DNA of 64,000 bases from Isoetes taiwanensis (taxonomy: Eukaryota > Streptophyta > Lycopodiopsida > Isoetales > Isoetaceae), in assembly GCA_021234155.1 (NCBI GenBank), contig JAJEKV010000002.1, positions 22,644,942-22,708,941 on the forward strand. Reading direction: 5' to 3'. The translations under genes and the position numbers were made by a program. Positions 5,446 to 63,425 of the stretch are shown here, one piece after another. The notes under the pieces were generated by a model, which was not told the origin of the DNA, ran no database searches, and worked only from the letters and a program-made list of their open reading frames with translations. Position 1 is the first letter of the stretch; every line of letters begins with the position of its first letter.

Positions 5446-5919
5446 GAAACCGAAGCAAATCCAGGGATTCTGAATTGGGCTGGAGCTGATTCCGGCCTCT
5501 CAAAGGGTTGGGACTAACAGTGGAGATGAATGCGAGTTAAGGATCAACTAGTAAACGGGTGCCCGACGTTGTCAGGCTAATGTCTCGGCGTGTGTTTTTC
5601 TCGGTCTTTAACGTCTATATATGCAACTTTTGACAACAATACATGTTGATACTGGCAAGAATGGATATCGTTTGTTTTTATAATTATATTTGTTATTGAA
5701 ATTGTGTAATGACAGTATCATCAATATATCAATTTTGCGTTTAAAGAATGAATTTTAGTAGGGTAAACAACGCTTTATAAAAAATGGGAGGGCAATTAAA
5801 TTTTCCTCTGAAGACAAAAAAATTTGGGAAGACAGAGTCAAAACTTATATTCAAAATCTCACTCTTAGAATTAGTTAAGTACGTCAACAAAAATAGGTAC
5901 AATATGTCCTGATTCATTG

Positions 5920-9123: not shown

Positions 9124-11112
9124 TCACTTGTTTAAATGACTTGCACACATTTTGAGCTGTTTCAACTTATAAACCTCCTCCTCCATGTGAGCATCAGCAT
9201 ATATATTTGACATGAGGATGTATGCCACATCACAATCTGGGCCTGACGCAAGAATGTGATAAAAGCACTCCCTCCCTGCCTCCACATTGGTATGCATCCT
9301 ACAAGCACCGAGCAGGCTTGTCCATCCCACATTATCTGCAACCATTGTAGTTTGGATCAACTCTTGTGCTTCCTTGAAAAATCCTGCACGCCCCAGAAGA
9401 TCTACCATACAGTTACAATGGCAATCAGCCGGTCTTATTTTATGATGATCTCTCATAGAAATAAAATACCAACGGCCTTCATCCACCATACCAGCACGAC
9501 TACATCCAATGAGTATACTAGCGAGAGACATCTCGTCTGGCTTTATTCCTGCTTTCTGCATTTGTCCAAAACATTCTAAAACCAAATGAACTTTGCCATA
9601 TTGAGCATATCCTGCAATCATTGCACCCCATGACACTATGTCTCGAAGTACCAGTTTATCAAAAACCTGATGCGCTTGCTCTATGTTACCACATTTAGCA
9701 TACATATCAACCAAGCTATTTCCTAATACATTTACCTTAAGTCCCTCCCTGATGATTTGTTCGTGCATTAGCTTCCCTTGTTCTAACGCTCCCATACTTG
9801 AACAAGCTTTTAAGATGCTCAAAAATGTAATTTCGTTTGGCTGAATGCCCTTGTATTGCATTTGTTTGAAGCATTCTAGAGCTGGAAGACCGTTTTCATG
9901 CAGAGCATATCCTGCAATAATGGCATTCCATATCTCTAAATTTGCTACTACGCCTTCCTGTTGCATCTGCTCCAAACATTCTAAAGCTAGATTATCTCTA
10001 CCATGCTGGGCATACCCTGAAATCATAGCCCCCCATGAAACCACATCTCGTTCTGGTAAGTGGTCAAAGATCTCCCTTGCCTCCTCCAGCTTACCACTTT
10101 TAGCATACATATCCACCAGTGTACCAGCTAATACAGCATCCAGTTGAAGCTTTGCTTGAATAATCTGCTTGTGGATGGCAATGCCTTGCTCAATTGCATC
10201 TACGCTAGCACAGGCGTTCAAAATGCTTGAAAACGTGATACGATCTGGTTGTATACCTTCTTGTTGCATTTTATCATAACAGTCTAAAGCTAGATGGGTT
10301 TTTCCATGATGCGCATATCCTGCAATCATTGCATTCCAGGACACCACATTTGGTTGTATGCCCTCCTGTTGCATCTTCCTAAAGCACTGGAAGGCCTCGA
10401 GAAAATTGCCTTTTTGTGCATATCCTGTGATTATGGTGTTCCATAATATAATATCTGGCTTTATACCTTCTTCCTCCATCTTCTCTAAACAATTTACTGC
10501 CCAAAGACCATTCCCATGCTGAGCATGACCTGCAACAATTGAACCCCAAGATACTATGTCTCTATTTGGGAGATTGTCAAATGCATTCCTTGCCTCATCT
10601 AAATTTCCACATTTAACGTACATATGAATCAGTGCATTGCCCACAACAATATCTGAATAGAACCCACTTCTTAAAATTTTCCCGTGAATGATCCTTCCCC
10701 GAACAACAGAGTGGGAGGTCACACAAGCTTTGATAACAGCAACAAGGACGTACTTGTCACCTTTCACATCTGATAGCTGCATTTGCTGGTATAATTCAAG
10801 AGCCAACAAACCATGTCTAAGTTTAGAACTCGCCAAGATAATTGCTGCCCAGGTATAAACAGTTGGACTTCCAATTCTATGAAATGACTCATTTGCTTCA
10901 AGCAAACTACTATGATGAACAAACAGACGAATGAGGTGATCACCTAAGACGGATATAGAAGCTAGCCCACTATGAAGCATAAGCAATTGCAATCTTCTGC
11001 TGCAATGCAGATCTTTTCTCCTTTCACATTGCTGCAAAAGATGGTATGCACTATCTCTTGTTATTGGAATCCTTTCTAGTTGTGCTGAGACATGAGTTTT
11101 CAGTCCCTTCAT
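9124..11112 (-). CDS. Pentatricopeptide repeat protein, PLS class with short E-type tail
   Basis: One uninterrupted 662-aa frame. A short N-terminal segment (residues 1 to about 45) is followed by tandem PPR motifs to about residue 570, recognisable from repeats such as VDMYAKCGNIEQAHQVFD, RDIVSWGAMIAGYAQYGK and KMQQEGIQPNVVSWNAMIAG. P, L and S variants alternate as in plant organellar editing factors. After the last repeats comes an E1-like segment (VGWTSLLGACRMHTNVEAGR, about 590-610, then YILMSNIYADA), and the protein stops at about residue 662 after LKQLKMCASHLNK, with no complete E2 or DYW deaminase domain. Family knowledge: such proteins enter plastids or mitochondria and bind specific RNA sites, recruiting a deaminase in trans if they lack their own. 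The N-terminus has no obvious presequence that I can call with confidence. The gene is intronless, as PPR genes often are. The exact RNA target is not predicted. Confidence 0.92.
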   Translation of the reverse strand: MKGLKTHVSAQLERIPITRDSAYHLLQQCERRKDLHCSRRLQLLMLHSGLASISVLGDHLIRLFVHHSSLLEANESFHRIGSPTVYTWAAIILASSKLRHGLLALELYQQMQLSDVKGDKYVLVAVIKACVTSHSVVRGRIIHGKILRSGFYSDIVVGNALIHMYVKCGNLDEARNAFDNLPNRDIVSWGSIVAGHAQHGNGLWAVNCLEKMEEEGIKPDIILWNTIITGYAQKGNFLEAFQCFRKMQQEGIQPNVVSWNAMIAGYAHHGKTHLALDCYDKMQQEGIQPDRITFSSILNACASVDAIEQGIAIHKQIIQAKLQLDAVLAGTLVDMYAKSGKLEEAREIFDHLPERDVVSWGAMISGYAQHGRDNLALECLEQMQQEGVVANLEIWNAIIAGYALHENGLPALECFKQMQYKGIQPNEITFLSILKACSSMGALEQGKLMHEQIIREGLKVNVLGNSLVDMYAKCGNIEQAHQVFDKLVLRDIVSWGAMIAGYAQYGKVHLVLECFGQMQKAGIKPDEMSLASILIGCSRAGMVDEGRWYFISMRDHHKIRPADCHCNCMVDLLGRAGFFKEAQELIQTTMVADNVGWTSLLGACRMHTNVEAGRECFYHILASGPDCDVAYILMSNIYADAHMEEEVYKLKQLKMCASHLNK

Positions 11113-11589
11113 GAACCCTGTTTGGAAATTCTGTCATATAACACGTTACATTAAAGAAACGTAAAAGGAGCATGCTTACATCTTCTCGCTGTTTCAAGGT
11201 TGAGAGACTGATAATACTCTGTATGAAGTCAAAATACGGCAATCAGTGCGGTGGACGTTGGACCATATCTGTGCTAGTCCGTTGATAGATAATAATAATA
11301 TTAGCAGAACCTCCATGGTCTAGTTCTAAGAAACATGTGTGGAACATTGTAAGGAGCACAAATTACCACTACAAGAAATTTACCTTGCTGCGAACATTTC
11401 TTTGGTTGGCCGCCTTGAACATTTCTTTGGTTCCAAACCTGTGGAGTTGAACCATTAACGTTCAAGGTCTGATAATACAATGTCTGTCTGAAGTCGGAGT
11501 CGGAATGACGTGAAGGGTTTTCAAGATTTTTAAGGACTACTTAATATTGATTTATAGAAATTAATGGTGGTCAGTGTTAGTGGTGAATC

Positions 11590-16499: not shown

Positions 16500-19400
16500 A
16501 TGTTAAAATCTATCAAGATGATTACTTAGAATCTCCAAGGCATTAACAATAGTATCAAAAGGGATAGATTAAAGTTTGTTTATCTAACCTTTGCCCTGAT
16601 ATTCTTTTTATCCAGGAACATAAGATCCATGATCCCAATCATGAAAGGATTATTTCTAATATTCTTCCTCCTAATTATAATATTGGTCCATTGTTGCTAA
16701 CAATTCGTCTGCAGGAATAGCCATAGCATGGAGTCACAGGATTAACATGGAAGATATTTATATGATTAATGATACCAATGGTAGATGGCAGACTCTTGTT
16801 GGTAGAATAGACTCTTGCAAGATTGCCTTTACTAATGTCTATTCTTATCATGAACCTTCTGAAAGATCTTTGATGTGGAGCAGAATTAACAACAGCTTGA
16901 GTAATTTGGATGTGGAGGATTGTGTTATTTGTGGAGACTTTAATATGGTCACAGACAGATTTATGAAGAATAAAAATTTCAGGAATCTTCTTCCTCAGGA
17001 AAGATGTGCCTGGGACAACCTTCTCTCTTCTCATAATTTGACCTTGGCCAGAACCAAACCTCAAGCCTTTAGTTGGTCTGACCACAGAATAGGTCCTATC
17101 TGCTGCCTCCATGATAGGTATTACCTTAGTGAGAATCTGTGGAACAGCAGCAGCAGAGTTGATAATCTTGAAGGCTACACTATTTCTGATCATTATCCCC
17201 AGCAGATTACCATTTCAGGGGATGACAGGGGCAATAAAAGAAAGGCCTATTTCAAAATGAATACTAGCTTGATGGATAATGATGATTTTATGGTCAAACT
17301 AGGGGAGATTATCAATGGAAATCCTAAGCCCACTGGAAACACAGGTTGGATGTACTGGTGGATTGATATGGCCAAAAAAATAAAATGCTGGCTCAAAGAA
17401 TGGGGCAAGAATATTTATAATCAAAATAGAGCTCATCTTCAGAACTTGAGGCAAAGCATTATTACAGCAAGTGATGAGCAAAAAGGGGAGATAAAAAGGC
17501 AAATTGAGGTCGAGGAAATTAAAATTGCAAAAGGATGGAAATTAAAGGCCAAAATAAAAGAGTTAAAGGAAGATGAGAGATGTAATTCCAAGTACTTCTT
17601 TAATAAAGCCAGATTCATGATGAAGAGGAATCATATTCATGAGGTCAGGGTGGATGATAATTTAATTTCTGAAGATAAGGACCTCAAACAAGCTGCAGTT
17701 GATCACTTCAAGAAGCTTATGGGATCCAATATGGACTCTACTCCAATGGTTATGGAAGAGTTTATTTGTCTAAATAAAAAGGTCAATGATGATCATAACT
17801 CATATCTTACTAAACCTTTTGTGAATGACGAGCTTTTGCAGGTTGTCAAGAATATGGAAAATGGCAAGACCCCTGGCCCTGATGGCCTTCCAGCAGAATT
17901 CTTTAAGAAGACTTTGGATGCAAGAATTAATACCAGTTTTATTGCTTTAAATCCTAAGATTGACTCTCCCAATACCTTCTCGGATTACAGACCTATTTCT
18001 CTCTCCAATGTTATATATAAAATTATTTCAGGAGCTATTGCCTTGAGACTTAAGACCATTTTGAACATCATTATTAGTAGTTCTCAATCAGCCTACCTCA
18101 AAGACAGGTTTATTTTAGACAATGTGGTAACAGCTATTTTGGGACTCCAATGGGCAAAAGAAAACTCGACATTACTAAGGCATTTGATACAGTAAGTTGG
18201 AATTTTTTATTTAGATGTTGCAGGGCTCTTGGTTTCAGCAATGAATGCATTCAAATATTTGAAGCCATTCTGCACAACTCAAGATCAGCAGTTCTCATAA
18301 ATGGTGAGTGCAGTCCTTTTTTCACAATCCAAAGAGGAGTAAAACAAGGTTGCCCCCTTGCCCCATTCCTTTTTCTGATTATTATGGAAGCCCTCCATTG
18401 TAGGCTGGATGTTGCAAAGAATACTAACCTTATTAAAGGTCTAAGGCTCCCTGAGAATCCTCAGGTGGATCAAATTCTAAATGGGCATTTTGCAGACGAC
18501 ACTTTTTTATTAATCTCAATGGATGAGAATTCCATTACAAATGCTCAAAGAATCCTTGGAGAATTTGGTGAAGCTTCAGGGTGTAAAATTAACCCTGCCA
18601 AATCAGCAATTCAAGCAAGAGATCAAGAAAAGGGATAATTGATGGCTTTAACCATGGGATGTAAGTATAACTCTCCTAGCACTAGTTCAAAGATCCTGGG
18701 TATCCCTTATGCAATCAGAAGTAATGCTTAAGATCTATGGGGAGGTATTATTGAAAAGTTTTACAAAAAGGTTGATACTCTGAACTCTAAATATCTTTTC
18801 AAAAATGGTAGGGCAGTCATTGCTAATTTTATGATTTCTTCTTCTCATGTGTATCAATCTTCAGTTATTCTTGCTCCAAAAAAGACTGCTAACAAATTGC
18901 AGGGAATTATTGGTAGATTCATAGCCTGTGGGCAAAACAGGAGGTGCTGGCACCCGGTCTCAATGAAAGAGTGTTGCAAATCAAAGAGTAATGGAGGACT
19001 GGGAACTATTAATATTGAGAAGCAAGGGATGGCCTTGGCTGCCAAGTACTTCTACAAGGCCTGTTATAACTCCATCAAGCACCCTATATCCATCCTTATT
19101 AGGCATTATATTGGAAAATTTCATCCTTATGGGTGGAGGTCACTGAAAATGGAGCTCCCCCACTCGATCTTTTTTCCCTTTACTGTCCCAAATTCCACTC
19201 CAGGTATTATCAAGAAGTGGATCAAGGCTTGGGATCAGATTAAGGGGATGTACACTTGGAAAGAAGGACTGTCCATGGACCAAACTATCTTTTGGAATCC
19301 AGCAGTCCTTCTCAACAACCCCAACCTTTGCCTGGCTTGCCACTTTCCGGATCAGGCCAGGCTATGGAAGAGCAAGGGAATCATATTTATCAGGGATCTT

Positions 19401-20998: not shown

Positions 20999-21185
20999 AA
21001 CTAATGGCAACCAGACTTGGATCCTCCTTGTTGAGTGGTGTGGAGACTTTTCAAGGAGAAGCTGGCTTCCAAGCATGGAAGGAGAGGATGAAGGATGTAC
21101 TATTGGCTAAAGATCTTTGGGATCTCGTTGAAGGAGTTGAACCAGATGAAGGTGAAAGCAGTGCAACCTCAGGAGGTAATGCTGC

Positions 21186-21690
21186 TGTCATGAACCTACG
21201 CGAAAACAAGGAAAATACGTGGAAAATACGCAAGAAATACGGAAGAAATATGCCAAGATAGGCAAAGAATCTGTTATAACAATACAATGCCCCCCAAAGG
21301 CAAGCAGGAACACGAGACAGATGCCTAGAAGGCTCAAGACTGGCATTGAACCAGAATGGTTTGACAAGAAGGAGATGCCTCCTTATATATGTAGGCCAAC
21401 GATCAGGATCGCGCCACTCCAATGGATGAGATCATGCCAAGTGTCGCGCATGCATGTAGGCTCTAGAATATTCTAAAACCTCCTGGAAACAGCCCCCCAT
21501 ATGAGAAAGACATGAGGAATGTCTTTAACAAATATTGGTAGGGCACTTGGCAAAGGTGTGTGACTCGCAACTAGAAGGTTGCGAGTTCAAATCTTGCTTC
21601 GTGCAACTACTCTTTTGCATCCGTGTGACGACTGTCTTTTGTACATACGAGTATAATGTTCGTATGATATAAATATCCGTATGGTCGTCA
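21186..21690 (-). repeat. Chromovirus 3' LTR
   Basis: Begins TGTCATGAACCTACGCG and ends TGGTCGTCA on the plus strand. It aligns along its length with 25181-25697, differing by scattered substitutions and a small indel near 21280. It is the 3' LTR for the minus-strand element. Confidence 0.88.
21535..21606 (+). other. tRNA-like segment inside the LTR
   Basis: TTGGTAGGGCAC resembles a tRNA D-arm/A box. Further on, GCGAGTTCAAATCTTGC forms a T-arm-like stem-loop with a B-box-like core. Between them, GTGTGACTCGCAAC could be a decayed anticodon arm. The same block recurs in the other LTR (about 25548-25619). There is no paired acceptor stem, so this is not a functional tRNA gene; a tRNA-derived SINE piece fixed in the LTR is possible. 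Confidence 0.35.
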
Positions 21691-25173: not shown

Positions 25174-25180
25174 TTCAAAC

Positions 25181-25697
25181 TGTCATGAACCTACGCGAAA
25201 ACAAGGAAAATACGTGGAAAATACGCAAGAAATACGGAAGAAATACGTCAAGATAGGCAAAGAATCTGATATATGAACAGGAATCAAGAGTACAATACCC
25301 CGAAGGCAAGCAGGAACACGAGACAGATGCCTAGAAGGCTCAATACTGGCGTTGAACCGGAATAGTTTGACAAGACGGAGATGCCTCCTTATATATGTAG
25401 GCCAACGGTCAGGATCGCGCCACTCCAATGGATGAGATTATGCCAAGTGTCACGCATGCATGTAGGCTCTAGAATATTCTAGAACCTTCTGGAAACAGCT
25501 TTGCATATGAGAAAGACATGAGAGAATGTCTTTAACAAATATTGGTAGGGCACTTGGCAAAGGTGTGTGACTCGCAATTGGAAGGTTGTGAGTTCAAATC
25601 TCGCTTCGTCCAACTACTTTTTTGCATCCGTGTGACGACCGTCTTTTGTACGTACGAGTATAATGTTCGTATGATACGAATACCCGTATAGTCGTCA
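25181..25697 (-). repeat. Chromovirus 5' LTR
   Basis: Direct-repeat partner of 21186-21690. It abuts gag on the minus strand. It carries the same tRNA-like block, here with GTGAGTTCAAATCTCGC. The divergence between the LTRs implies the insertion is not very recent. Confidence 0.88.
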
Positions 25698-27429: not shown

Positions 27430-27690
27430 TTACTAGCTGACGATGTACCTGACGATTTTTATCTGACGATGAATCGTCAAAAAAATCGTCAGTTTTCTGA
27501 CGATTAAGCGTCAGAAATATCGTCAAAACAAACGTCAGGGTTCGTCAAGATTATCGTCAGGAAAAACGTCAGAAAAATCGTCAGAAAAATCGTCAAAAAA
27601 ATAGTCAAACAAAATAGTCAGCAAAATAGTCAAAAAAATCGTCAACAAAATAGTAAAAAAATCGTCAAAAAAATCGTCACAACAATTGTT
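27379..27690. repeat. TGACG/CGTCA-rich 12-bp minisatellite
   Basis: About 19 copies of CGTCA or its complement TGACG lie within about 310 bp, mostly in units AAAAATCGTCAG. The first part (27445-27510) contains both orientations, so CTGACGATTTTT and AAAAATCGTCAG can pair; later copies are in one orientation and decay to ATAGTCA. TGACG is the core of plant TGA-class bZIP binding sites, but no adjacent promoter can be assigned. Confidence 0.8.
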
Positions 27691-27720
27691 ACCAAATTTG
27701 TCAGTTTGTTTGTCCATTTA

Positions 27721-29700: not shown

Positions 29701-31288
29701 TAAAAACCACCTGGGAAAAAACCGTTGCCAGGATGACTATGGCTGCTCACCGATCCAAAAATCCATGCTGTTGCACAAGCAACAAGCATACCTTCATACC
29801 TCCAGCAGGCAAAGCTTCACCAAGCAACTCCGAACCGTAACCTCTTCACAACTGGGTGCTGGAAAACAGACGCCCCCAACGCCAATCGCCCAGACACGCA
29901 GGGAAGGCGGCGCTCAGAAAAACCGCTCAGGGAAATCGCCCATCGGAGGTGCCTCCTCACCCATCCACCAGCCCTGCGCCAAGGCGCCAGCACCCCCAGG
30001 TATGCGCGCAGGCGGACATCCACTCAGGCACACACAGGGGCGCCATCCGTCACTGCCGCTGCTCCAACGCCATCCATCACTGCATCCGCTCGGGCAGGCC
30101 TCAGGCAGCGCCTCAGGCAGGCCTCCATGAAACCAAATAGCTGGTATTAAACAACAGAAATAGTTTACAGATTACAGTCAAGACCCACCAGTCAGCATGT
30201 TGTAGTTGAGCAAACTATTGTCAGCTCCAAACCGGCCATCATTGTATGCCATAGATCTGTAACAACCATTTTATGTTAGCAAGAACTCAGTTCGATTTTC
30301 CTCAGCTGCTACAATTATTTGACCTTTCAAAAAACGAATGGCCGGAATGGAACAAAAAATCTACCTTCTGAGCTCGATGGTCTGTCTGATCTTTCTGCCA
30401 AACTAAAAGAACAGGCTGGTCCCCCAGCCTCTTGTTTTTTGCTCGATGTTCAGAACGAAATTCCAGCCAACTGCCAATATGGAGGTATGTTTGGCAGATC
30501 AATGGAGCTGCAATGGATTGAAAACAGATGGTGATGGTAGATTTGAGGATGATATGAATATGATCATGGGGGTGATCTGCAAATGAACCTGCATGGATAG
30601 TGTGATCATTAGTAAAGAATATGAACTGCTGGATGGAAGTGTACTGACAACAATCTAATGGATTAGATGGAGAAGAATGAGGATTTGAAGTGTTTTATGT
30701 GAATCAACTCTTGTACAGATGAGTATGGAATGGATGTTTCAGGGTGCACCTGCATGTGACAAAAGATTCATTAGCATAATGAGCTGCTGTTGTGGAGGGG
30801 ATGGCAGCAGCTACAGAGATGAAAGTGAATGAAGAGAAGTGAATGAGTGTGAGATGTATGATTGCAAATCCAGATGCTCCTGCATGGAATTCAGATCTTG
30901 AGCAGTAAAAGTGTTTGTTTTGAACCTTGAATAAGTTAACACCTGCACAAATCTCCTGTTCTTGCATTAATAGTGGAAACCTCGAATTAAAAAGTTTAAC
31001 TTATGCAAATACTGGAATTCAAAATCAAATACTACTTACCAAATACTCCTGCATTGTTTTTTATCTTTTTTTTCTTCTTTTTTGCTTTCTTTGCAATATT
31101 AGTCGACCAAAAGCAAACTAAACTATCCTACCTACAAATTCTGAATGAACTTTTAGCTAAACAAACTTAAGGCAACATGTTGTTGCCAATACCTTTTCAA
31201 ATGTAGGATATTGATAGGATTCAACAATTCTCTGCCACCAAGCACATCTCTTAGCCAATAAGAATCTTTACCTGCTTTACCAATAACT
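29701..31288. other. No gene seen; GC-rich island at 29850-30130
   Basis: The segment 29850-30130 is much richer in GC than its surroundings and is open on both strands with Pro/Arg/His-rich translation, without a recognisable domain. The remainder is AT-rich. No gene is proposed. Confidence 0.4.
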
Positions 31289-37781: not shown

Positions 37782-38358
37782 TGTTAGTCCTGTGCCTCCT
37801 GGGACAGGACTATTCATGCATACGACAGACCAGGTCAAGCTCAAGGATCCTCAGTCAGCCACGGGTCAGCCATCAAAGGCTCATGAGAAGACCAAGCGGC
37901 CAGACCACCTTGATCAAAGCTTTGTGGCCCGTCAACAAGAGCCCGCTTCGGACAAGTGGCGACCCGTCCGCCCGCGTCGGCGTCGGCGTGATTCTAGGCA
38001 CTTCAAGAGGCACCGCCAACATTCACCAAATCGGGCCTCCTTCCGAGTCGGCACAGAGATCGGTCGAGTGTCTATATTGGGCCCAAGGCCATTGTACTAT
38101 ATATATGAGTAGAGCTAGCACATGAGTTTTGAGATGAGTTTTGAGTCTTGTCTCCTTTCAGTTTTCTCTCTATTGCGAGAGCTCATGTATGTTCATCATT
38201 GATATCAAGGAAGCTTATCATCTTTCTCTCATTTGTTTGTTTTCTTCTTCTTCTTCTCTTCTTGCAAATCCCGCGTGACATAGTCCCCGGACTCTCTGTT
38301 AGATCCACGGGTCCTCCGGAGGGCTGTCTTCGGGAGTTCGAACCCGGACCCCAAAACA
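37782..38358 (+). repeat. 5' LTR of the 11.5-kb gypsy element
   Basis: 577 bp. Contains a TATA-like ACTATATATATGAG (about 38096-38109) preceded by TTGGGCCCAAGG, followed by a CT-rich region. The distal half is almost identical to the 3' LTR, while the GC-rich proximal half differs by clustered small indels. Confidence 0.9.
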
Positions 38359-48733: not shown

Positions 48734-49326
48734 TGTTAGTCCCTGTGCCTCCCGGTACGGGACTATTCATGCATATCTGACAGACCAGGTCAAGCTCAAG
48801 GATCCTCGGTCGGCCCACCGGGTCAGCCATCAAAGGCTCCGAGAAGACCAAGCGGCCAGACCACGCAAAGGTCAAAGCTGCGGGCCGTCAACAAGAGGCA
48901 CCGCCGGACAAGTGGCGACGACCACCGCCGCGTCGGCGTCGGGCGTGATTCTAGGCACTTCAAGAGGCACCGCCAACATTCCTCAGAATCAGGGCCTCCT
49001 TCCGTGAGTCGGCACCGAGATCAGTCAGAGTGTCTATATTGGGCCCAAGGCCATTGTACTATATATATGAGTAGAGCTAGCACATGAGTTTTGAGATGAG
49101 TTTTGAGTCTTGTCTCCTTTCAGTTTTCTCTCTATTGCGAGAGCTCATGTATGTTCATCATTGATATCAAGGAAGCTTATCATCTTTCTCTCATTTGTTC
49201 TGTTTTCTTCTTCTTCTTCTCTTCTTGCAAATCCCGCGTGACATAGTCCCCCGGACTCTCCTGTTAGATCCACGGGTCCTCACAGAGGGCTGTCTTCCAG
49301 GAGTTCCCGAACCCAGACCCCAAACA
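48734..49326 (+). repeat. 3' LTR of the 11.5-kb gypsy element
   Basis: 593 bp, preceded by the polypurine tract and followed by CTCCA (49327-49331). Contains the same TATATATATGAG promoter core (about 49060-49071) as the 5' LTR. Confidence 0.9.
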
Positions 49327-51747: not shown

Positions 51748-52473
51748 TCATTCTAGAGCATTATTAAATTCATATTCTTCCATAAGATTGAACAAGCCAA
51801 TTATGTCTTCTCTTTCTTTCAACACTTCTCTAATGTACGAACTCAAGGTATGAGCAGGAATATCAAACAACTCCTTCAAGGTAGACATGTAAATTCCATG
51901 CTTGACCCTTATATGTTCATAAGAATAGCATTCCAATAAAGCATGCTGTTCTGTCTCTATCTTTGGGTCCAGACAACCAGGACAAAACCTCTCCTCACGA
52001 GCTAACCCATGCATTCTACCAGTCTCAATATGTAAAGTATGGGATGACAATCTGAGCTGCGAGATTGCCATTCGTTTCTTTCTGTTGATATGAGAGGCTA
52101 AGTAAGCTTGAGCGGTATAATCATTCAGATCATTTATCTCTGCTAGGTAGGACCTTTTCTTCGTATCACCGTCTGCATTTAACTGCCACATTTTTTTAAC
52201 TGTTATGCATGTGACTTGTTCATGTACTTCCTTAAACTTTGTTGACATTGGCCACATCCCATGTCCAAGCCATCTAGCTGCCCATCTTCTTATATCAGCT
52301 TGCCATCCTCTTTCTCTTGACTGTTCAAATGCCAACCTGGGCCATCTATCCAAGTCCATAACCAGAATTCTATTTACATAGGTGATGGTTCTGCAAAGCG
52401 CCTCTACCTCTAAGGGCAGTAAGCCTGCTTCAGCAAGGAGCATGCAATACGGTGTTTGAGATTTCACACCCAA
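51748..52473 (-). pseudogene. LINE C-terminal domain with CCHC-like zinc motif
   Basis: Ends the RT polypeptide. Contains RLSSHTLHIETGR and CPGCLDPKIETEQHALLEC (CX2C...HX4C, about 51990-51934), shared with the LINE at 57190-57534. This is a likely nucleic-acid-binding tail. Confidence 0.7.
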
Positions 52474-53491
52474 TTCCCAGAGGAGGAACCTTTTTGAATT
52501 TTTTCAATCTCATGCCAGCATTTTTTAGAAAGTCCGGGCCCCCAGATTGGGCTGCCATACAAAACTACTGGCTTCACCTGTATGCCGAAAAGCAACTTCC
52601 TCAGATTCCAGTGCTCAAAATTATTCATTTTGCATTGATGCATCATATTATAATAGGCCCTAAGCCCCCCAGAGGCTCTCTTCCGGGCTGCTACAGTCCA
52701 CCTATAGTCATTTGTAACATCTATGCCAAGATACTTATATTCTTTTACCTGTTCCAAAGGAATCCCTCCGACTGTAAAAATGGTTGAGTCACGGCCACCA
52801 ACAATCATTACCTTGGATTTAGCTGCATTAATTTGCATACTATTATGCTCACAAAACTCCTGTAGCACATCCAAGTGTTGTTGAAGCCCATTGGCAGTTT
52901 TGGAAATCAAAACTATGTCATCCGCAAAAAGTAATAATTGCACAATATACTTACCTAGTTTTGCTCCAACTCCACCAAGTCTCGCCAACCATCCCTCCAA
53001 ATCATCTATGAATAACCCAAAAAGCATTGGCGAACAAGGACATCCCTGTTTAACCCCAATGGTATTATCAATGCATTCAGGCCTGTAAAAGGAAAAGAGA
53101 GCTCAACCAGGACTTTGTTATAAAGACAAGCAACCGCTTGCCTAATTTCCAATGGTACCTGCAACAGTTCTAACCGCGAGGCCAGATCTTTTCTTTTTAC
53201 CTTGTCAAATGCTTTCGCTAGATCTATAAAGGCAATATATCTCTTATTATTTGATCCCTTTGCGCCCTCAGCCAACACTCTCAAAGTAGCCAGATGGTCA
53301 AGAGTAGAGTATGCTTCTCTAAAACCTGCTTGCCCAATTGCTCGCCCAGCATGAGAGTCCGCCCAATCTGTAAGCTTTTTTTCAACCATTGCGGCAAATA
53401 GTTTAGCAAATATACTACCCACAAGAATTGTGCGGTAGTTTTTAATTTCATCTCTGTCTCCAGATTTATATATCGGGATAACTCTATTCAA
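52464..53491 (-). pseudogene. Reverse transcriptase of the minus-strand LINE
   Basis: RVIPIYKSGDRDEIKNYRTI (about 53485), IGQAGFREAYSTLDHL, AFIDLAKAFDKVKRKD (about 53235) and, after a frameshift near 53080-53030, MLFGLFIDDLEGW and LLLFADDIVLIS (about 52940-52905; the FADD catalytic pair). It copies its RNA at a nicked target. Confidence 0.85.
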
Positions 53492-53576
53492 GCACCGATC
53501 TTGTGGAAAATGTCCTGTTAAAAGAGCTTCATTCTGATTTCAGCTAAGAGGGCATGAAGTGGACGACCTCCCCATT

Positions 53577-54977
53577 TTAACAATTCGGTGACATACCATT
53601 AGAGTCACTAGCCCGGCCATTGCCCATAGCCTTCAAGGCTTCTTGTACATTATGTCCTGTAAAAATTGGAGTGGCATCTCCCTCACAAACCATCTGGTCC
53701 ATATGTGGCGTATTATATAAATCTTGTACCCATGCCAACAATTCCTTTCTAGAAATATCACCCATCAAGTTTTGCTTTTTAGACCGGTTAAAAAACCTTT
53801 TTGGATCTATCTCCATTTCATGCATAAGCATTTCAGTGTGTTTTCTCATCCAAGCTCGTTTTTTTCGCTTGATAAGCTTTTTATAATGAACAAAGTTATC
53901 AGGATCCTTGGATTGTTTCCATGTCTCTTTTGCTGATCTGCAATCCAGGTCAAACCACTTACTATTTGCCCATTTCTGTCTCTTTGGCTTGGTAAGCCCA
54001 AATATGGACTGTGCTGCCTGCAAAGTGAGATTCATAAGAGTTTTGCTTCTGTCTTCTAGTGACCCTTGCCACTGTAACTCCATCAACTTGGCATCTAAGG
54101 CTTTTTCATAATCAGTTGCACGTCTATAACATAGCTTCAGTCTTGGTGGTGGTACTGCCGCTGGCACTTTTCTGTTAGCTTTTACATCCAATGTAAATAC
54201 ATAAGGAGTATGATCAGAATCGATATTCCTATCTAACATGGACAAATTCGTCACTAGATGTAATGCATTTGGATCACCAATAAGGTAATCGATTGTGCTG
54301 CTACCATTTGATTGGTAGTACGTGAATCCACTAGAGTTGGGAAATCTAGTAATCCCATTGTACATAATGAAATTAAACGCCTCACATAATGCAATTATAT
54401 GCTTGCCCATCTTATTAATAACCGTATCTGCTGTCTTGCGAGGCCAACTAGCTTGTAAATCTGATTGTTCTACAAGCCATAATGGGTTCTCTTCCTCAGA
54501 TAGAAGAAAGGCTTGCCTATTGCTCACACGACCATTAAGGTCTCCTGCAATAAACACCATACCAGACTCTCTATATGTTGAGATGTCGACTGCAAGATGT
54601 ATAAAAGGATCGTCAGCACATAAGCCATCTGTAGAATAAACAGGTGCTGGATAAGGCTCAAGAGGAGCAAAATAAGCAAGTGCCACATAAATTTCAACAG
54701 AGTTATCCTTTAACTTCAGCCAAATATACTGTGAGAATTTATCTTTGCTAACAACTGAAACTGTCTTTTGTAGATCCTTTTTCACATAGCAAGCAACTCC
54801 ACCCCATCCCCTTTTGCTATTGCCCAATTCATTCCAGACTGAGTCCAACAGACAAAAACCTGGGATTTCTAAAAGTCTACTATTTTCATGTTCCCAAGTT
54901 TCAGTGAAAGCTAGAACATCACATCCCTGAAACATTTGGATATTGCTCAAAATGGTATCTTCGCACAAACCATGCAC
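53577..54977 (-). pseudogene. Endonuclease and linker of the minus-strand LINE
   Basis: 466-aa frame. DVLAFTETWEHENSRLLEIP (about 54920), GWGGVACYVKKDL (about 54805), MVFIAGDLNGRVSN (about 54565) and IDSDHTPYVFTLD (about 54225-54190) are the APE-type endonuclease boxes. The rest is the linker before RT. The frame is intact across its length. Confidence 0.85.
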
Positions 54978-55349
54978 ATTCCATACACAGTGGAATTGAT
55001 TTGAGCGACTAGCTGAACCTGATCCCCTTTCTCTCCTTGTTCTTCTCGCAGTTCTCCTTGCTCTTCACGCAATTCAATGACCACTTCCTTCAAATCATCC
55101 AGATTTACTTTCAAGGCTTTGATTTCTTCTCTTGCTGCCTGCACTTCCTCCCTTGATGCCTTAATTTCCTCCCGTGCTGCCTTGAGCTCTGATGAAAGCT
55201 GCCGGATCAAGTGCAAAAGGTCACAGCCATCCAGTTCGTCAACCTCCTTCTGAGTCGTAAGCCTGGTTTGGCTTTTCCGCCTGACATCAGGTGGTTTCCC
55301 GCTCAGTCCAGGTAGTTCCGACAATTTTGAGCGCAAACCTGCGCGCCCT
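54947..55349 (-). pseudogene. ORF1-like coiled-coil segment of the LINE
   Basis: Heptad-rich peptide AREEIKASREEVQAAREEIK and repeated ELREEQGELREEQGEKGD (about 55190-55030). It overlaps the endonuclease start in another frame. The basic N-terminus RRKSQTRLTTQKE is consistent with RNA binding. Confidence 0.6.
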
Positions 55350-56979: not shown

Positions 56980-58944
56980 AGAAGGAAGGAAGGAAGGAAG
57001 TATATTTTAACGTCCACGGAGTCCAACTGGCCTATGAGATGGTCACAATACAATATATCAGATAGTATCCAAACACAAAAGAAAACCACAAAGTCCTATA
57101 CAATGTGTCTCTACCACTGGGACGAAAAAATCCCCCCATGTGGGAGGAAAAACCCTTGTAGTAGGCGTTCAAATTCCCTATCTGGGTGATCAAATTCCCT
57201 GTGCTGTGAGGGACTCTCTGACAGTGGAGACTTGCAGAATGTAGGACGCAAGATGTGCAACCATTGGCGAAGCCAGCAATTGATGAATTGCTATCTCAGA
57301 GCATCTGAAATCGGCATGAGCTGCTCGGATGTGTGCATATGCCGGACACTCCTGTAGAGCATGGTGTTCATCTTCTACTATCTGCATGTGGCAACACTGG
57401 CATAGTCTCTCATGCCGGGGGATTCTCTGCCCTCCATCCGTACCCCAGCGGCCTGTCTCAATTCTGAGATGGTGGGACCCTGTCCTCATTGCAGCTATGG
57501 CTCTCCGTTTCTTGGTAGAGATGTGTGCCTTCAAATATCAGTGTGGACCATGTTCCAGTGATGGATTAACCTGCGTGTGGTAGTGCTCTGTTTTGGGCTT
57601 CGCAAGAGTGCGCACATCCCACAGAGAGGCAGCAAAGCGCTCATTCAAACGCAGCTCTTGTTCCCCGATATCCGGCATAGCCATAATTTGTTGATAGTCT
57701 ATGGACCATCTTGCGAACCACCTCTTACAATGCTCCTGCCACACTCTCTTCAGTCGTTGTGGCCCTTGTGCCAATAACAGAGCCTGGGGAGGGAGACGTT
57801 GTGCATCCATTCCGTCAACCTTATGGAAATACGCAAGGTGCCTGCGCATAGCAGAATGCTGCAGAGGCCAAAAACCCGTCTCATACAACAAAATCGGATA
57901 AGGCACCGTGTCTCTGACGCCTAGGCTGTATGTCAAGAAGGCTTTCTGTACCCTCTCTAGCTTATTCCAGGTGTTCTTGCTAATTGCTGGACCCTAGACC
58001 TCTACCCCATACAACAATCTGGTTCAACGAGTGCTCTGAACAGGTGTGCTTTGCGTGCCCAATCGCAGAGATCTATTCTGTAACAGCTATTCTGCATTGC
58101 ATACATGGCTTTCCATCCCCCGCTGACCCTTCTTTCTACACAGTCATCCCATAGCATGTTAGCAGAAAAATCAATTCCCAGATACTTAAAGATCCTTAGA
58201 ACATCCATCCTTTGTCCTCTGTAATAGAAGTCTGGGATATCATGCTGCGCGGATAAGATTGCCAGCACCTTGGTCTTCTGCTGGTTCACGGTCATTCCTG
58301 CTATGTCGCAGAATCCACTGAGAGCGTCCAAATGTTCCTGTATACTCCTAGATGTATTAGACAATAAGGCGACATCGTCTGCATAGAGCAATTGTTTTAT
58401 TGTATATGCCTCTGGCAACTGTGGGCCACCACCTCCATGTTCTTGCATCCAGGTCTCCAACTTGTCAATATAGATTCCAAAAAGCGTTGGACATAATGGA
58501 CATCCCTGTTTAACACCTATGGTGCTACTCACTCGGTGATCTGACGCAGGCAAAGTGGCATATATTCCGTCATATAGCCTGTAGATGGCATTTTGCAAGT
58601 CCCATGGGACATGTAGCTCCTGCAAGCGCTGCCCCAACAGGTCTCGAGGGACCGTATCATATGCCGTCTTAAAATCCACGAAACAGCAATACAAGTCACG
58701 TCATGCATTGCGGCTAGCTTCCATAAGAATTCTGAGAGTAAACATATGGTCAATCGTGGAGTGGGCAGGGCGAAAACCTGCCTAGCCAACTGCACGTACT
58801 CCAGTTTCCTCAGCCCACTATGTGAACTTCTTCTCCAACACACCTGCTAGAAGTTTTGCGAGTAATGGGCTCACCATGATCATACGGTAGTTGGTGGAGT
58901 CATCCCTACTTCCCGTCTTATGAATAGGGGTGACCTTGCTAACC
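56980..58944 (-). mobile_element. LINE, 3' half with (TTCC)n tail
   Basis: Runs on the minus strand from the insertion junction (58944) to the microsatellite (GAAG repeats at 56980-56999). It carries RT and C-terminal domain. The 5' half of the same copy is at 62139-63425; the two halves meet at adjacent codons once the transposon 58945-62138 is removed. Confidence 0.85.
57190..58944 (-). pseudogene. Reverse transcriptase and C-terminal zinc domain of the split LINE
   Basis: RT boxes: SKVTPIHKTGSRDDSTNYR (starting 58940), CCFVDFKTAYDTVPRDLLG (about 58690), STIGVKQGCPLCPTLFGIYI (about 58540) and LLYADDVALLSN (about 58400-58365). In another frame downstream, LRIETGRWGTDGGQRIPRHE and CQCCHMQIVEDEHHALQEC (about 57410-57355) repeat the zinc motif of the other LINE. 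Stops near 58000 and 57540 break it. Confidence 0.85.
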
Positions 58945-60016
58945 CCCGGGGACTTCACCATTAAGAACCCGTATAGACCAACATCGTGACTGGTAGGGGG
59001 TTTTTTAATAGGCAAAGGGGTCCGTAGACGGGCGGGTTGGTTGTACGAAAAACCAAGTTCTAGCAGTACTCAAAACGTTAGGGGTGGTGGGCGGGAAATG
59101 GCGCTCCCGCATGGATCCGGGTAGGGGTATAGGGCATTCGTCTGCGCCGTTACACCCTTCTGCAGTCGTCAAGGCTCCAGAATGGCTCCAGAATGATAGA
59201 ACCAAGAAGCAAAACTTTCTGGCATTCCGACATAGGGTTTCAATCAGCAGGGGAGTCGGAATCTCTGATGCAGAGGAGTCGTGAAGGAAAGAAAGCTTAA
59301 GGTAGAATCTTTTCCTTTGAGTACGATTTTTAACCTCAAAACTTGGATCTCTAACACAACTTTGGATTTCTTTGTCTCATATGACTCTTGATCTGCTTAA
59401 AAGCTGGCAAATTCCAAATGGGTTTAATCTAAATCTCTGATATCTAACGTGGATTTAGGGTGTACCGATTCTTGAGATTATGGCTATGGTAGCAGTCTCT
59501 TTCAACTATGGAAGATCCAGCTCAAGTGGTTTGGTTGTCCTAAAATATAGAAATTTATTCAATGGAAGGAGGATATGGTTATCATGATATCATAAGTTTG
59601 ATGCTAATACATCTTGTTCTAGAGCATCATTATTGCTAATAATCATCCATGTGTGCTCTGTTTTATATTCTGCAGTGCATCATTTACCACCATAATCTAT
59701 TATGGATGATCCATTTGTCAATCTGTAGTCAATAACCATGTTCTTGTTCATCCTAGATTGGCATTGCTGGTTGTTAATGGAATAAATCTGCTAGGCCTAG
59801 CTCATATGCATTATCTGCTTTGTCACAAATCCTGGCATGGGTTTGCTAAGAAATTTCTGATTACCACTTAACGAGCGAAGAAATTGTGAGGAACATCATG
59901 AACTTGTGATTCACATAAAGTGCCGATTTGCTAAAATCAATAACATTGAATTAGATATGATAATATTTGTATAGCCATTTTTCAATTTATCACAGTTGGC
60001 TGTGGTTATTGTGTAG

Positions 60017-60944
60017 ATTGTGGGTTGCTTAGTGGAGGATGAACATAAAGTTCTGCTTTGCAAGAGAAGCATTCAACCATCATATGGTCTCTGGCAAGTG
60101 TTCCTCTTGTGTTCTCGTAAAAGGATGACGCTTCAATAGCTTGTAGCCATTTGGGTACCTTTTATAGGACTCTACCTGCGGGCTATATGGAACTTGGAGA
60201 GTCAGCTGCTGAAGGGGCTATGAGAGAAACCAGGGAGGAAGCACAGGCAGATGTTGAGCCTGTCTCTCTTTTTGCCCACCTTGATATACCTCGTATTGGA
60301 CAGGTTAAGCTGCATCAATGTTGCATTTATGTATTGGATTGCCAACACTGTTATATTGTGCTGACTATCTTGTCATTCATGCAGTGCAGAGCTATATAAT
60401 ATTTCGTGCCAGGTTCAAGAATCGGCACTTTGCTCCAGGATTGGAGTCCCTTGAATGCAGACTTTTTGACTTGGATGAAATACCCTTTAATAAGATTGCT
60501 TTTTCCTCTGTTAATGTGGCATTACAAATGGTGCGTCTCTGATTCTAAAGATATATAACGCATTTATAAATTCTCTCTCTCTCTAATGCTTCATATTATT
60601 CCTTTGCTTTGTGCAAATTGTTTGATTGCACTAAGTGATACTAGGGAGCCAAGACAATGTTGATGTGCAATGGCTTTTATTGTTACAAAGTGATCTTATA
60701 TGCATGTGCCTCAGGTGCTTGTCTCAGAATATTAATGAGTTGCATGTTTGCAGTATCTTGATGACTATAGGTCAGGTCGATTCAAGGTGCACCATGCTGT
60801 CATCGATAAAAGGTAACTATTGTCCTTTTCTGCCTTGGAACCTAGAAGATTGGAAGGATGTATTTAGTGTGTTATTTTTCTAGGCTTGGTGCTGGTCCAT
60901 CCGATTGTGAAGGTTTTGTTCTTCGGGACCATTTGTCGCATTAA
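60017..60944 (+). CDS. NUDT23-like Nudix hydrolase, C-terminal five exons, captured
   Basis: Exons 60017-60093, 60168-60303, 60390-60530, 60754-60812 and 60884-60944 join to 158 codons including TAA, with no stop. They read [88 protein letters not shown] and a tail ending DHLSH. This is the order and spacing of plant plastid NUDT23 (ADP-ribose/FAD pyrophosphatase type). The first intron uses a GC donor (CTG|GCAAGT). The Nudix box GX5EX7REUXEEXGU is kept except that the final Gly is Gln (REEAQA). The transit peptide and zinc-ribbon exons of the family are not found upstream. The segment lies wholly inside the TIR element; introns show capture from genomic DNA and not from cDNA. Whether it is expressed is unknown. 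Confidence 0.85.
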
Positions 60945-61711
60945 CACAGATACTTTAGCACAGATTCACTATAAGGTATATTTCTTGTAAGAATGAAGAG
61001 AGAATGGGGAAAGCAGATTTTTCCTGCACCGAGCAAATTTATGGATAAAGATAATTTATTCTTGTAGCTTAAGTAAGCGCTGATTATGCTTTCAGGATAT
61101 AGAAGAAATGAAGTGTAAATTGCATTAGCTATTTTTTTTAATGGAATATTATTGCTTAATCTTTTGTTCTTTGAACAATTTCCTATTTCTAATCATTGTG
61201 TCTGTGTCGACATATCTGAATCAACATAAGGGACCACCTGCATAAACAGGAATCATAAACATGTTTAATTGTATCATGGTCAGTACTATGCCCACAAACG
61301 CGAGAAAATTGCTTCCTGGTTTTAATGGTTTGTCATCTAAAGGTAGACAAAACAAATTGCAAGTAATTAATGCGCCTTCATTGTGCAATGAGCTTAGAAT
61401 ATACTTGGTTGAATATAAAAACATCTACTAATCACGTCAAAGCACCATTCTTTTCTAATTTCTACTGTTTACCTATAAGTCCATTCTAGACTTTTAATAA
61501 GTTATACTAAGTCCATTAATCCTGGAGTTTTATTAAGACAATCATATTCTACTTCAAAATTCATTCTCATATAAACACATCCTTCACTTATGCGCGGCCA
61601 CACATTTATTAATGTTATAAAATTGACAAACGTTGCCTTGCTAATATCAGCATGTTGCTGTCGAAATAGCATATATGCATGATAAAGGGAAATACATGTC
61701 AGGACACATTA

Positions 61712-61738
61712 GCCCGGCAATGCCGGGCACACGTCTAC
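61712..61738 (+). other. Helitron-like 3' terminus
   Basis: GCCCGGCAATGCCGGGC is a 7-bp-stem hairpin with a 3-nt loop, followed after six bases by CTAC and then T. Helitron 3' ends have a short GC hairpin 5-10 bases before CTRR and insert before T. CTAC departs from CTRR at the last base. No 5' TC end or Rep/Hel gene was identified. Confidence 0.4.
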
Positions 61739-62138
61739 TCCCTAATCAACTTAGATCCCCCTTTTAACCTTGCATTATGATGTTAATCCCCCTTTTAACG
61801 TTGCATTTAATATGGGCTTCTATTTGAATAATCAAACTCCAAACCCCTACAACAAACTAGCTTAGCTAGCTCTTGTAATGACTAAAAAAATATTCAAAAA
61901 ATGATGTGTTACCATGGGCTAGGACTTTTCTTATGGTGTCCAGTATATGTATGGGAAAGGGTATATGGATTGCTAGTTGGGACTGGAGTACATGTACGGA
62001 TAAGGGGCCAAAAATTAAAATTCATATGTACGTATGGTTGGGGGGTTTCGCCCGCAAAAAGCCGTATACAGGGGGGTTTCAGTCGACCCCTTGCACGCAC
62101 ATGCCATATGCTCTATATAAAGGGGTGAAGCCCCCGGG

Positions 62139-63425
62139 TGCTAACCATCCATTCCTATGGGAGGCCCTCTCTAATGGCCTGATTGATTATCACTGTCAAA
62201 GGCCCTAGCAAAGCTGGTCCACTCCATTTCAACAGCTCGGCCTGAAGTCCCTGCAAGTCCTTTGCTTTACCATTAGCAAGATGTCTAAGACCCTGGTGGA
62301 TGTCCTCCTCTGAAAGCTGTAGCGTTTCTCTTAGCTGATCTGATACCTCATCGCTCCTGGGGGGTCATACAACTCCTCCAACCGTTGTCTCCACTGGTCT
62401 GAGGTAACATTTGCCTCTTATCTAACACTCTACACCAAAAGGCTTTTGGTTCAGTCATCAGCAGATCAAACATGCGCTGCTGATTTTCTGCAATATACCG
62501 ATGCTTTTTGGATTTCATGAATGCCTTATAGTCCCTAATGGCCTGTTGCCAGCATTGTGGATTTAAAATGGGGCATAGCTGGCTCTTTAGAGCCTTACAT
62601 TCGGCGTCAAACCAGGGGTTCTGAGGGAATTGCGCAGTGTCCCTTTGCGGGGCTTTCTTACTGCAAAGAATTCACTGGCTGCTGCGAGTAAGGCCTTCAC
62701 CAACTCACACTTATCATGCAATGTATAGAGGGCATCAATCCCTTGTAGCTCACGTTCAAGCGCAACCTCATATTCTGCTTACTTCCAATAGTTCGGGGTG
62801 TATCCCAAACCCCGAGAGCGTTTATCCTGTGGGCACGCAACTGAGTATCTCCAACCCAAAGTGACATAAAGTGGATAATGGTCTGACAAAGTCTCTTCAT
62901 CTCTTGTTCTTGTTCCTGTCGCGAAATCTCTAATCATATCAAGTTCTGACACTGGAGCTAGGAGATAGTCCACCACGCTGGCTCCACTATCGCATCTGTC
63001 GCTTCTGCAAGTAAAGCCCCCTGATCGCGGCCATCTGAGCATACCATTGCAGATCACCATGTCAAAGATCTGGCAGAGCAGGACCAACTCTTTTCCAAAG
63101 GCTCTAGAGACTGTATCCTAGGACCGTCTTGCATGCTGGGGCGCACCTGTCTCTAGCCAAAGTGGGTTGGAGTCCGCATTTCCCTGGAAGGTGACCGACT
63201 AACACTGTGCCGTACGTGCATTGAAATCTCCTAATAAAAACACATGACCCTCCTGGCGATACTGCTCTATGTCAGCATACAGTTTCCTATCGGGCATATG
63301 CATATCTATATCTGCCTGATGAACCCTGTAGAACTTAGAAGTTTCATCTATAGCATCTTTGAAGTAGCACGCGACTCCTCCATACCCTCGCTTGCCATGG
63401 GCAGTCAGAACACTACAAGAGAATA
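62139..63425 (-). mobile_element. LINE, 5' half: endonuclease and linker
   Basis: Minus strand: GKRGYGGVACYFKDAIDE (about 63390), VFLLGDFNARTAQ (about 63240), CDSGASVVDYLLAPVSELD (about 62990) and ETLSDHYPLYVTLGWR (about 62905-62850) are endonuclease boxes. Further on LRHLANGKAKDLQGLQAELL (about 62300-62240) leads toward RT, and the reading stops at the transposon junction. The N-terminal endonuclease block is missing, so the copy is truncated at about 63425. AGAATA-like sequence at both outer ends may be its target duplication. Several stops are present. Confidence 0.82.

Follow-up and report, generated by a model that had tools for sequence, protein, structure and literature searches.

In grapevine, transduplicated gene fragments were reported in all class II superfamilies, hAT and PIF included (PMC2528002; this paper and the others below are cited from part of their text), and a survey of Pack-TYPE elements whose hosts were Arabidopsis, rice, and maize described hAT, PIF, CACTA, and Mariner members in rice and maize (PMC8903248). 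Since these two reports document the capture of genes by hAT, PIF, CACTA, and Mariner elements in angiosperms, the kind of event considered here is already known; ferns, gymnosperms, and lycophytes go unmentioned in the part of the main text of a 2026 review of plant gene capture that is drawn on here (PMC13317346). The present analysis concerns a stretch of 64,000 nucleotides from the lycophyte Isoetes taiwanensis (GenBank assembly GCA_021234155.1, contig JAJEKV010000002.1, positions 22,644,942 to 22,708,941 of the forward strand), hereafter the window, in which a first-pass annotation made from the letters alone had proposed a DNA transposon that captured a Nudix hydrolase gene and jumped into a long interspersed nuclear element (LINE). 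We regard it as probable that a non-autonomous Pack-TYPE (transduplicating) element, closest to hAT elements in its sizes, captured a piece of a NUDT23-type gene and entered the LINE. The insertion of an element with terminal inverted repeats (TIRs) carrying a NUDT23 fragment can be stated with high confidence, and its membership in a Pack-TYPE family that itself made the capture with moderate confidence.

The insert and its borders were located as follows (positions are those of the window).

58937..58944, no strand assigned: left target-site duplication (TSD), TGCTAACC
58945..58959, plus strand: left TIR, CCCGGGGACTTCACC
58945..62138, plus strand: TIR element of 3194 bp, read as a non-autonomous Pack-TYPE element
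62124..62138, minus strand: right TIR
62139..62146, no strand assigned: right TSD, TGCTAACC

The insert thus has an inverted repeat at each end, and the left repeat CCCGGGGACTTCACC was identical at 14 of 15 positions to the reverse complement of the right one, CCCGGGGGCTTCACC. The two copies of TGCTAACC agreed at all eight positions, while the ninth base, just past the duplication, disagreed between the two sides (T versus G). These measurements reproduced the proposed 3194-bp element with its 15-bp inverted ends and perfect 8-bp duplication. When the whole window was scanned for inverted ends directly flanked by an 8-bp direct repeat and lying no more than 15 kb apart, the insert scored 14/15 and the runner-up 12/15; across 20 simulated windows generated by a first-order Markov model, the top inverted-end pair reached 12/15 and none was higher. 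The calculated expectation for ends matching at 14 or more of the 15 positions together with an 8-bp repeat, with bases taken as independent, was about 0.001 per window.

On either side of the insert lie the two parts of a reverse transcriptase reading frame.

58002..58936, minus strand: downstream portion of the LINE reverse transcriptase split by the insert, with a match to Pfam RVT_1 (E 1.6e-20) in 58002-58700
62147..62364, minus strand: upstream remainder of that LINE frame, beyond the insert

Excision of the insert together with one TSD (3202 bp; 3202 mod 3 = 1) yielded a single minus-strand reverse transcriptase frame running through the join. The rejoined frame was shown to be decayed, 4 of its 386 codons being internal stops, and with these stops masked as X it could be aligned to a second LINE in the window (52464-55064, minus strand) at 41% identity over 151 columns spanning the join (E 2.7e-51 for the linked segments). 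The sole gap in this alignment, one residue long, lay some five residues ahead of the join, which was itself gap-free. The earlier statement that the codons rejoin exactly was therefore confirmed, and the restored frame, together with the alignment across the join, indicates that the two LINE pieces are the halves of one copy into which the insert landed.

The cargo consists of five exons, each matched in tblastn by NUDT23 homologues.

60017..60093, plus strand: captured NUDT23-like exon 1, with acceptor AG and donor GC
60168..60303, plus strand: captured exon 2, containing the Nudix box
60390..60530, plus strand: captured exon 3
60754..60812, plus strand: captured exon 4
60884..60944, plus strand: captured exon 5, ending in the stop codon TAA

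As had been proposed, these five NUDT23-like exons with their introns (474 nt, 157 residues) are open through to the stop codon, and the encoded protein, its Nudix box intact, matched the Pfam family NUDIX (PF00293) with an E value of 3.3e-15. The splice signals were intact, with AG at the five acceptors and GC, GT, GT, and GT at the donors. At the first captured intron (60093/60094), the donor reads GCAAGT, with GC in place of GT. Homologue searches, which took the best 120 of 1586 and the best 120 of 7996 proteins and gave 214 homologues in all, returned plant NUDT23 proteins and their relatives as the top-scoring entries, at 71-74% identity across nearly the full length; partial matches among those listed reached 79% identity over 75% of the query. 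The closest solved structure was 3cng (E 3.8e-37). The four introns retained among the five colinear exons led us to reject a processed retrocopy.

Homologues at full length bear an N-terminal zinc ribbon (PF14803) and a transit peptide. When seven full-length homologues were used as tblastn queries against the window, no credible exon for either part was seen among the 80 listed matches, which cover four of the queries and part of a fifth; the best stray zinc-ribbon match, at 30019-30261, had an E value of 0.008, 25% identity, and an internal stop. Captured exon 1 starts right after the M of an NPKM motif and has no ATG, and the TAG in its acceptor site terminates the reading frame upstream of it. 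These features indicate that the piece begins in the intron preceding the catalytic domain and comes without a start codon. The captured copy is a 5'-truncated gene fragment and not a whole gene, so that of the Nudix hydrolase gene claimed at first, a NUDT23 fragment with introns stood and the wholeness of the gene, which lacks its 5' exons and start codon, did not.

The intactness of the exons would also suit a normal NUDT23 locus flanked by unrelated pieces of LINE sequence, a possibility that the first-pass annotation had itself raised and that is contradicted by the restoration of the frame. The LINE pieces form one frame, are contiguous in LINE coordinates, and are broken precisely where the duplication lies; the tblastn matches listed for the window included no credible N-terminal exon; and inverted ends with such a duplication are expected only about 0.001 times per window. 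On the exact rejoining of the LINE and the lack of N-terminal exons among the listed matches, this explanation was rejected as almost certainly wrong.

The relationships of the captured copy were then considered. In a 32-row NUDT23 tree built from the copy and 31 of 120 homologues, the copy was placed beside Selaginella with support of 97/93; in a second tree that included mosses and a liverwort (25 of 214 homologues plus the copy), it again stood beside Selaginella at 81/77, which is below the starred threshold. By order of BLAST score among the 214 homologues listed, the liverwort Marchantia paleacea (74% identity, 240 bits) came first, slightly above Selaginella (71%, 235 bits). Taken by themselves, the trees would point to a lycophyte as the likely host, against which this BLAST order speaks. 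Conservation was assessed on 85 of 120 homologues, the other 35 having been dropped for covering fewer than 153 of the 157 columns. The copy kept 53 of 54 near-invariant residues and deviated at one, a V to I change at the first residue, and 31 of the 85 homologues deviate as much as it does or more.

In a neutral simulation starting from the present sequence, the probability of retaining a frame without stops and with at most one change at the near-invariant positions was 0.08 at 3% divergence, 0.025 at 4%, and less than 0.01 at 5%. A single change among 54 residues thus implies either a recent capture, with neutral divergence no greater than about 4%, or the action of selection. The latter would be the case in a living gene, in which a new upstream exon within the element provides the start codon and selection maintains a translated Nudix domain. 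The single altered residue, the freedom from stops and broken splice sites, and the improbability of such conservation under neutral drift above about 4% divergence are all consistent with it; a recent capture, however, accounts for the same data, exon 1 has no ATG and a closed frame upstream, and the top four in-phase pairs of ATG and donor upstream are weak (each with a score of 5 on an ad hoc count over 9 donor positions) and would give 1-6 residues. We therefore consider a living gene quite unlikely. The exons could yield a stand-alone Nudix domain only with an upstream exon supplying the start codon, and a passenger gene fragment is the more likely state; with a frame closed upstream and a missing start, a recent passenger is the simpler reading.

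In the remainder of the interior, the two left-half open reading frames (ORFs) at 59012-59284 (plus strand) and 59008-59376 (minus strand) gave no Pfam match, the scan for a transposase being limited to these two. A second captured gene in the left half was rejected, as neither of the scanned ORFs had a Pfam match. The G+C content was 0.53 and 0.55 in the outermost 100-bp bins on the left and 0.56 on the right, against 0.27-0.51 in the core, and the next bin inward on the right was at only 0.41. Such G+C-rich outer bins around a lower core are what would be expected if the element's own ends flank captured DNA. In raw counts, the outer 250 bp contain GGGGT 4 times on one side and 3 times on the other, versus once in the inner 2664 bp; the corresponding counts for AGGGG are 4 and 3 versus 5. 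Near the right end of the element, at 61755-61807, two 22-nt direct repeats are 95% identical, with their starts 31 nt apart.

As to the superfamily, hAT elements were described as 2.5-5 kb long, with TIRs of 10-25 bp and an 8-bp TSD (PMC3942097), and the present element, with a TSD of 8 bp, TIRs of 15 bp, and a length of 3194 bp, falls within all three ranges. The closest class is accordingly a Pack-TYPE TIR element that is hAT-like in size and possibly a relative of hAT elements. The ends of hAT elements usually have A as their second base and G as their fifth; the ends found here, CCCGGGG, have the G at position 5 and C at position 2. This departure would fit a MULE (Mutator-like element) or another superfamily making 8-bp duplications, a reading that overlaps with ours and differs from it in superfamily alone. 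MULEs are, moreover, the classic gene carriers. Short or absent TIRs occur among them as well (PMC2528002), and yet their TSDs in grapevine were reported as always 9 nt (PMC2528002), where the ninth base here differs, so that we regard such an assignment as unlikely.

The base at position 2 is one of several observations that weigh against a hAT-like Pack-TYPE element as the capturing agent. By local alignment, the inverted ends extend no further than 15 bp. With up to three mismatches allowed, the end pattern was found three times in the 64-kb window, namely in the two TIRs (0 mismatches) and at 18567-18581 (3 mismatches), the chance expectation at this tolerance being 0.97 matches per window; without mismatches it was confined to the element's own two TIRs, and thus no second copy was seen within the window. 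Neither the parental gene nor a near-identical protein was among the 214 homologues listed. To these is added a Helitron-3'-end-like hairpin inside the element, which may keep alive a nested capture, as described below.

61637..61739, plus strand: repeat resembling a decayed Helitron 3' end, shared with 5550-5659 (minus strand), with a 7-bp-stem hairpin at 61712-61728

Helitrons are not known to have TIRs or to make TSDs; their 5' end begins with TC in a TCTMTAYTA-like sequence, and they insert before a T. In a nested capture, a Helitron whose 3' end is the hairpin at 61712-61728 would have taken the NUDT23 piece, and then sat in or ridden the TIR element. The repeat at 61637-61739 is homologous to 5550-5659 on the minus strand (71% identity over 110 columns, E 6e-7), and both copies contain a 17-nt hairpin with a 7-bp stem, in which one pair is changed on both sides between the copies (G-C versus A-T) and one G.T pair occurs in the 5550-5659 copy. 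After the hairpin, the 5550-5659 copy reads CTAGT, and the element copy has CTCC where the other has CTAG. Plant Helitrons were described as ending in CTRR, often CTAGT and often after a palindrome, and as carrying gene fragments (PMC2575219), so that the hairpin and CTAGT of the 5550-5659 copy look like the 3' terminus of a plant Helitron; a strong 3' hairpin was present in only 9 of 35 maize Helitrons (PMC2575219).

The CTCC of the element copy, on the other hand, speaks against such an end within the element, as does the folding of the hairpin in the 5550-5659 copy, which is no better than that of shuffled sequences (z -0.27, versus z -3.05 for the element copy). Neither a Helitron 5' end (TCTMTAYTA with at most one mismatch) on the plus strand of 58945-61740 nor a perfect hairpin followed by CTRRT on either strand of the window was found. 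The best score for repeat homology upstream of 61637 was 27, no better than the mean of 29.3 for 100 shuffles, a comparison that did not take in the whole of the gappy alignment of the two copies printed from 61063 on. The repeat may also be old and derive from the 3' flank of the parental gene. A nested capture is accordingly given a small chance. Of the original proposal of a DNA transposon that captured the gene and entered the LINE, the insertion and the cargo are upheld, and it is the capturing element that the Helitron-like remnant puts in dispute.

The preferred reading, that of capture by a Pack-TYPE element, would involve a non-autonomous cut-and-paste TIR transposon that acquired part of a NUDT23-type Nudix hydrolase gene in genomic form, starting within the intron ahead of the Nudix domain and running past the stop codon. 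The capture would have been made at the DNA level by the TIR element itself, and a transposase presumably supplied in trans would then have inserted the element into the LINE, giving rise to the 8-bp duplication. For Pack-CACTA elements, neighboring insertions with aberrant excision were described to produce a hybrid element enclosing chromosomal DNA (PMC13317346), a route that would be in keeping with captured DNA that retains introns and 3' flanking sequence. A bolder version, in which a TIR element active in a lycophyte and with ends that are neither clean hAT nor MULE lifted exactly the catalytic Nudix domain of NUDT23, leaving the zinc ribbon behind, and the domain is now under selection as a new stand-alone enzyme gene, is in our estimation very unlikely; if true, Pack-TYPE exon shuffling would reach as far as the vascular plants whose living lineage branched off first.

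Elsewhere in the window, direct repeats of about 500 bp at 21185-21690 and 25180-25697, about 4.0 kb apart and 93-97% identical in pieces, enclose RNase H/reverse transcriptase coding sequence, the whole being probably a long terminal repeat (LTR) retrotransposon. A second pair at 37923-38288 and 48879-49251, about 10.96 kb apart and 78-100% identical in pieces (172 nt at 100%), likely represents the terminal repeats of a young LTR retrotransposon, and an ORF lying between them gave a sub-threshold aspartyl-protease match (E 0.0025). A pentatricopeptide repeat (PPR) gene at 9124-11133 (minus strand) is a single open frame of 669 aa with an E motif, and the relatives of its protein, in conifers, Diphasiastrum, ferns, bryophytes, and others, showed 29-41% identity among the best 120 of 6340, none being close. 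An array of ~12-bp units with a CGTCA/AGTCA core occupies 27492-27718, and an Rfam search of the window gave 0 matches.

The class of element was initially said to be little described outside angiosperm MULEs and Helitrons. With respect to superfamilies this did not hold, given the grapevine and Pack-TYPE reports (PMC2528002; PMC8903248, in the parts cited), and with respect to plants outside the angiosperms it went uncontradicted; a limited literature search, a weak negative at best, found no lycophyte case of gene capture by a TIR element. The locus offers a clean example of cut-and-paste gene carriage, in which the empty site, ends, duplication, and cargo are all readable, probably outside the seed plants. 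On its own, the element adds one more passenger to the known gene fragments; if lycophyte copies and a parent exist, it would suggest that TIR transduplication is widespread across vascular plants.

Pack-MULEs likewise hold intron-bearing gene fragments between inverted ends, with a TSD that is typically 9 bp in contrast to the 8 bp found here. Helitrons are not known to have the TIRs and TSD that the present insertion shows; those of maize that carry genes (PMC2575219) share with it the capture of gene fragments, and a Helitron-3'-end-like hairpin lies inside the present element. Hatvine-6 and the other class II transduplicators of grapevine are similarly built like hAT elements, with gene exons and introns enclosed by their ends, and whereas Hatvine-6 copies share a transposase as well as TIRs (PMC2528002), no transposase was seen in the two ORFs scanned here. 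The Pack-hAT, Pack-PIF, Pack-CACTA, and Pack-Mariner elements of rice and maize (PMC8903248), to which the lycophyte element is likened by description, differ in their host; they too are non-autonomous, with TIRs and TSDs around gene-derived DNA, and their hAT members have 8-nt TSDs, as does the element described here.

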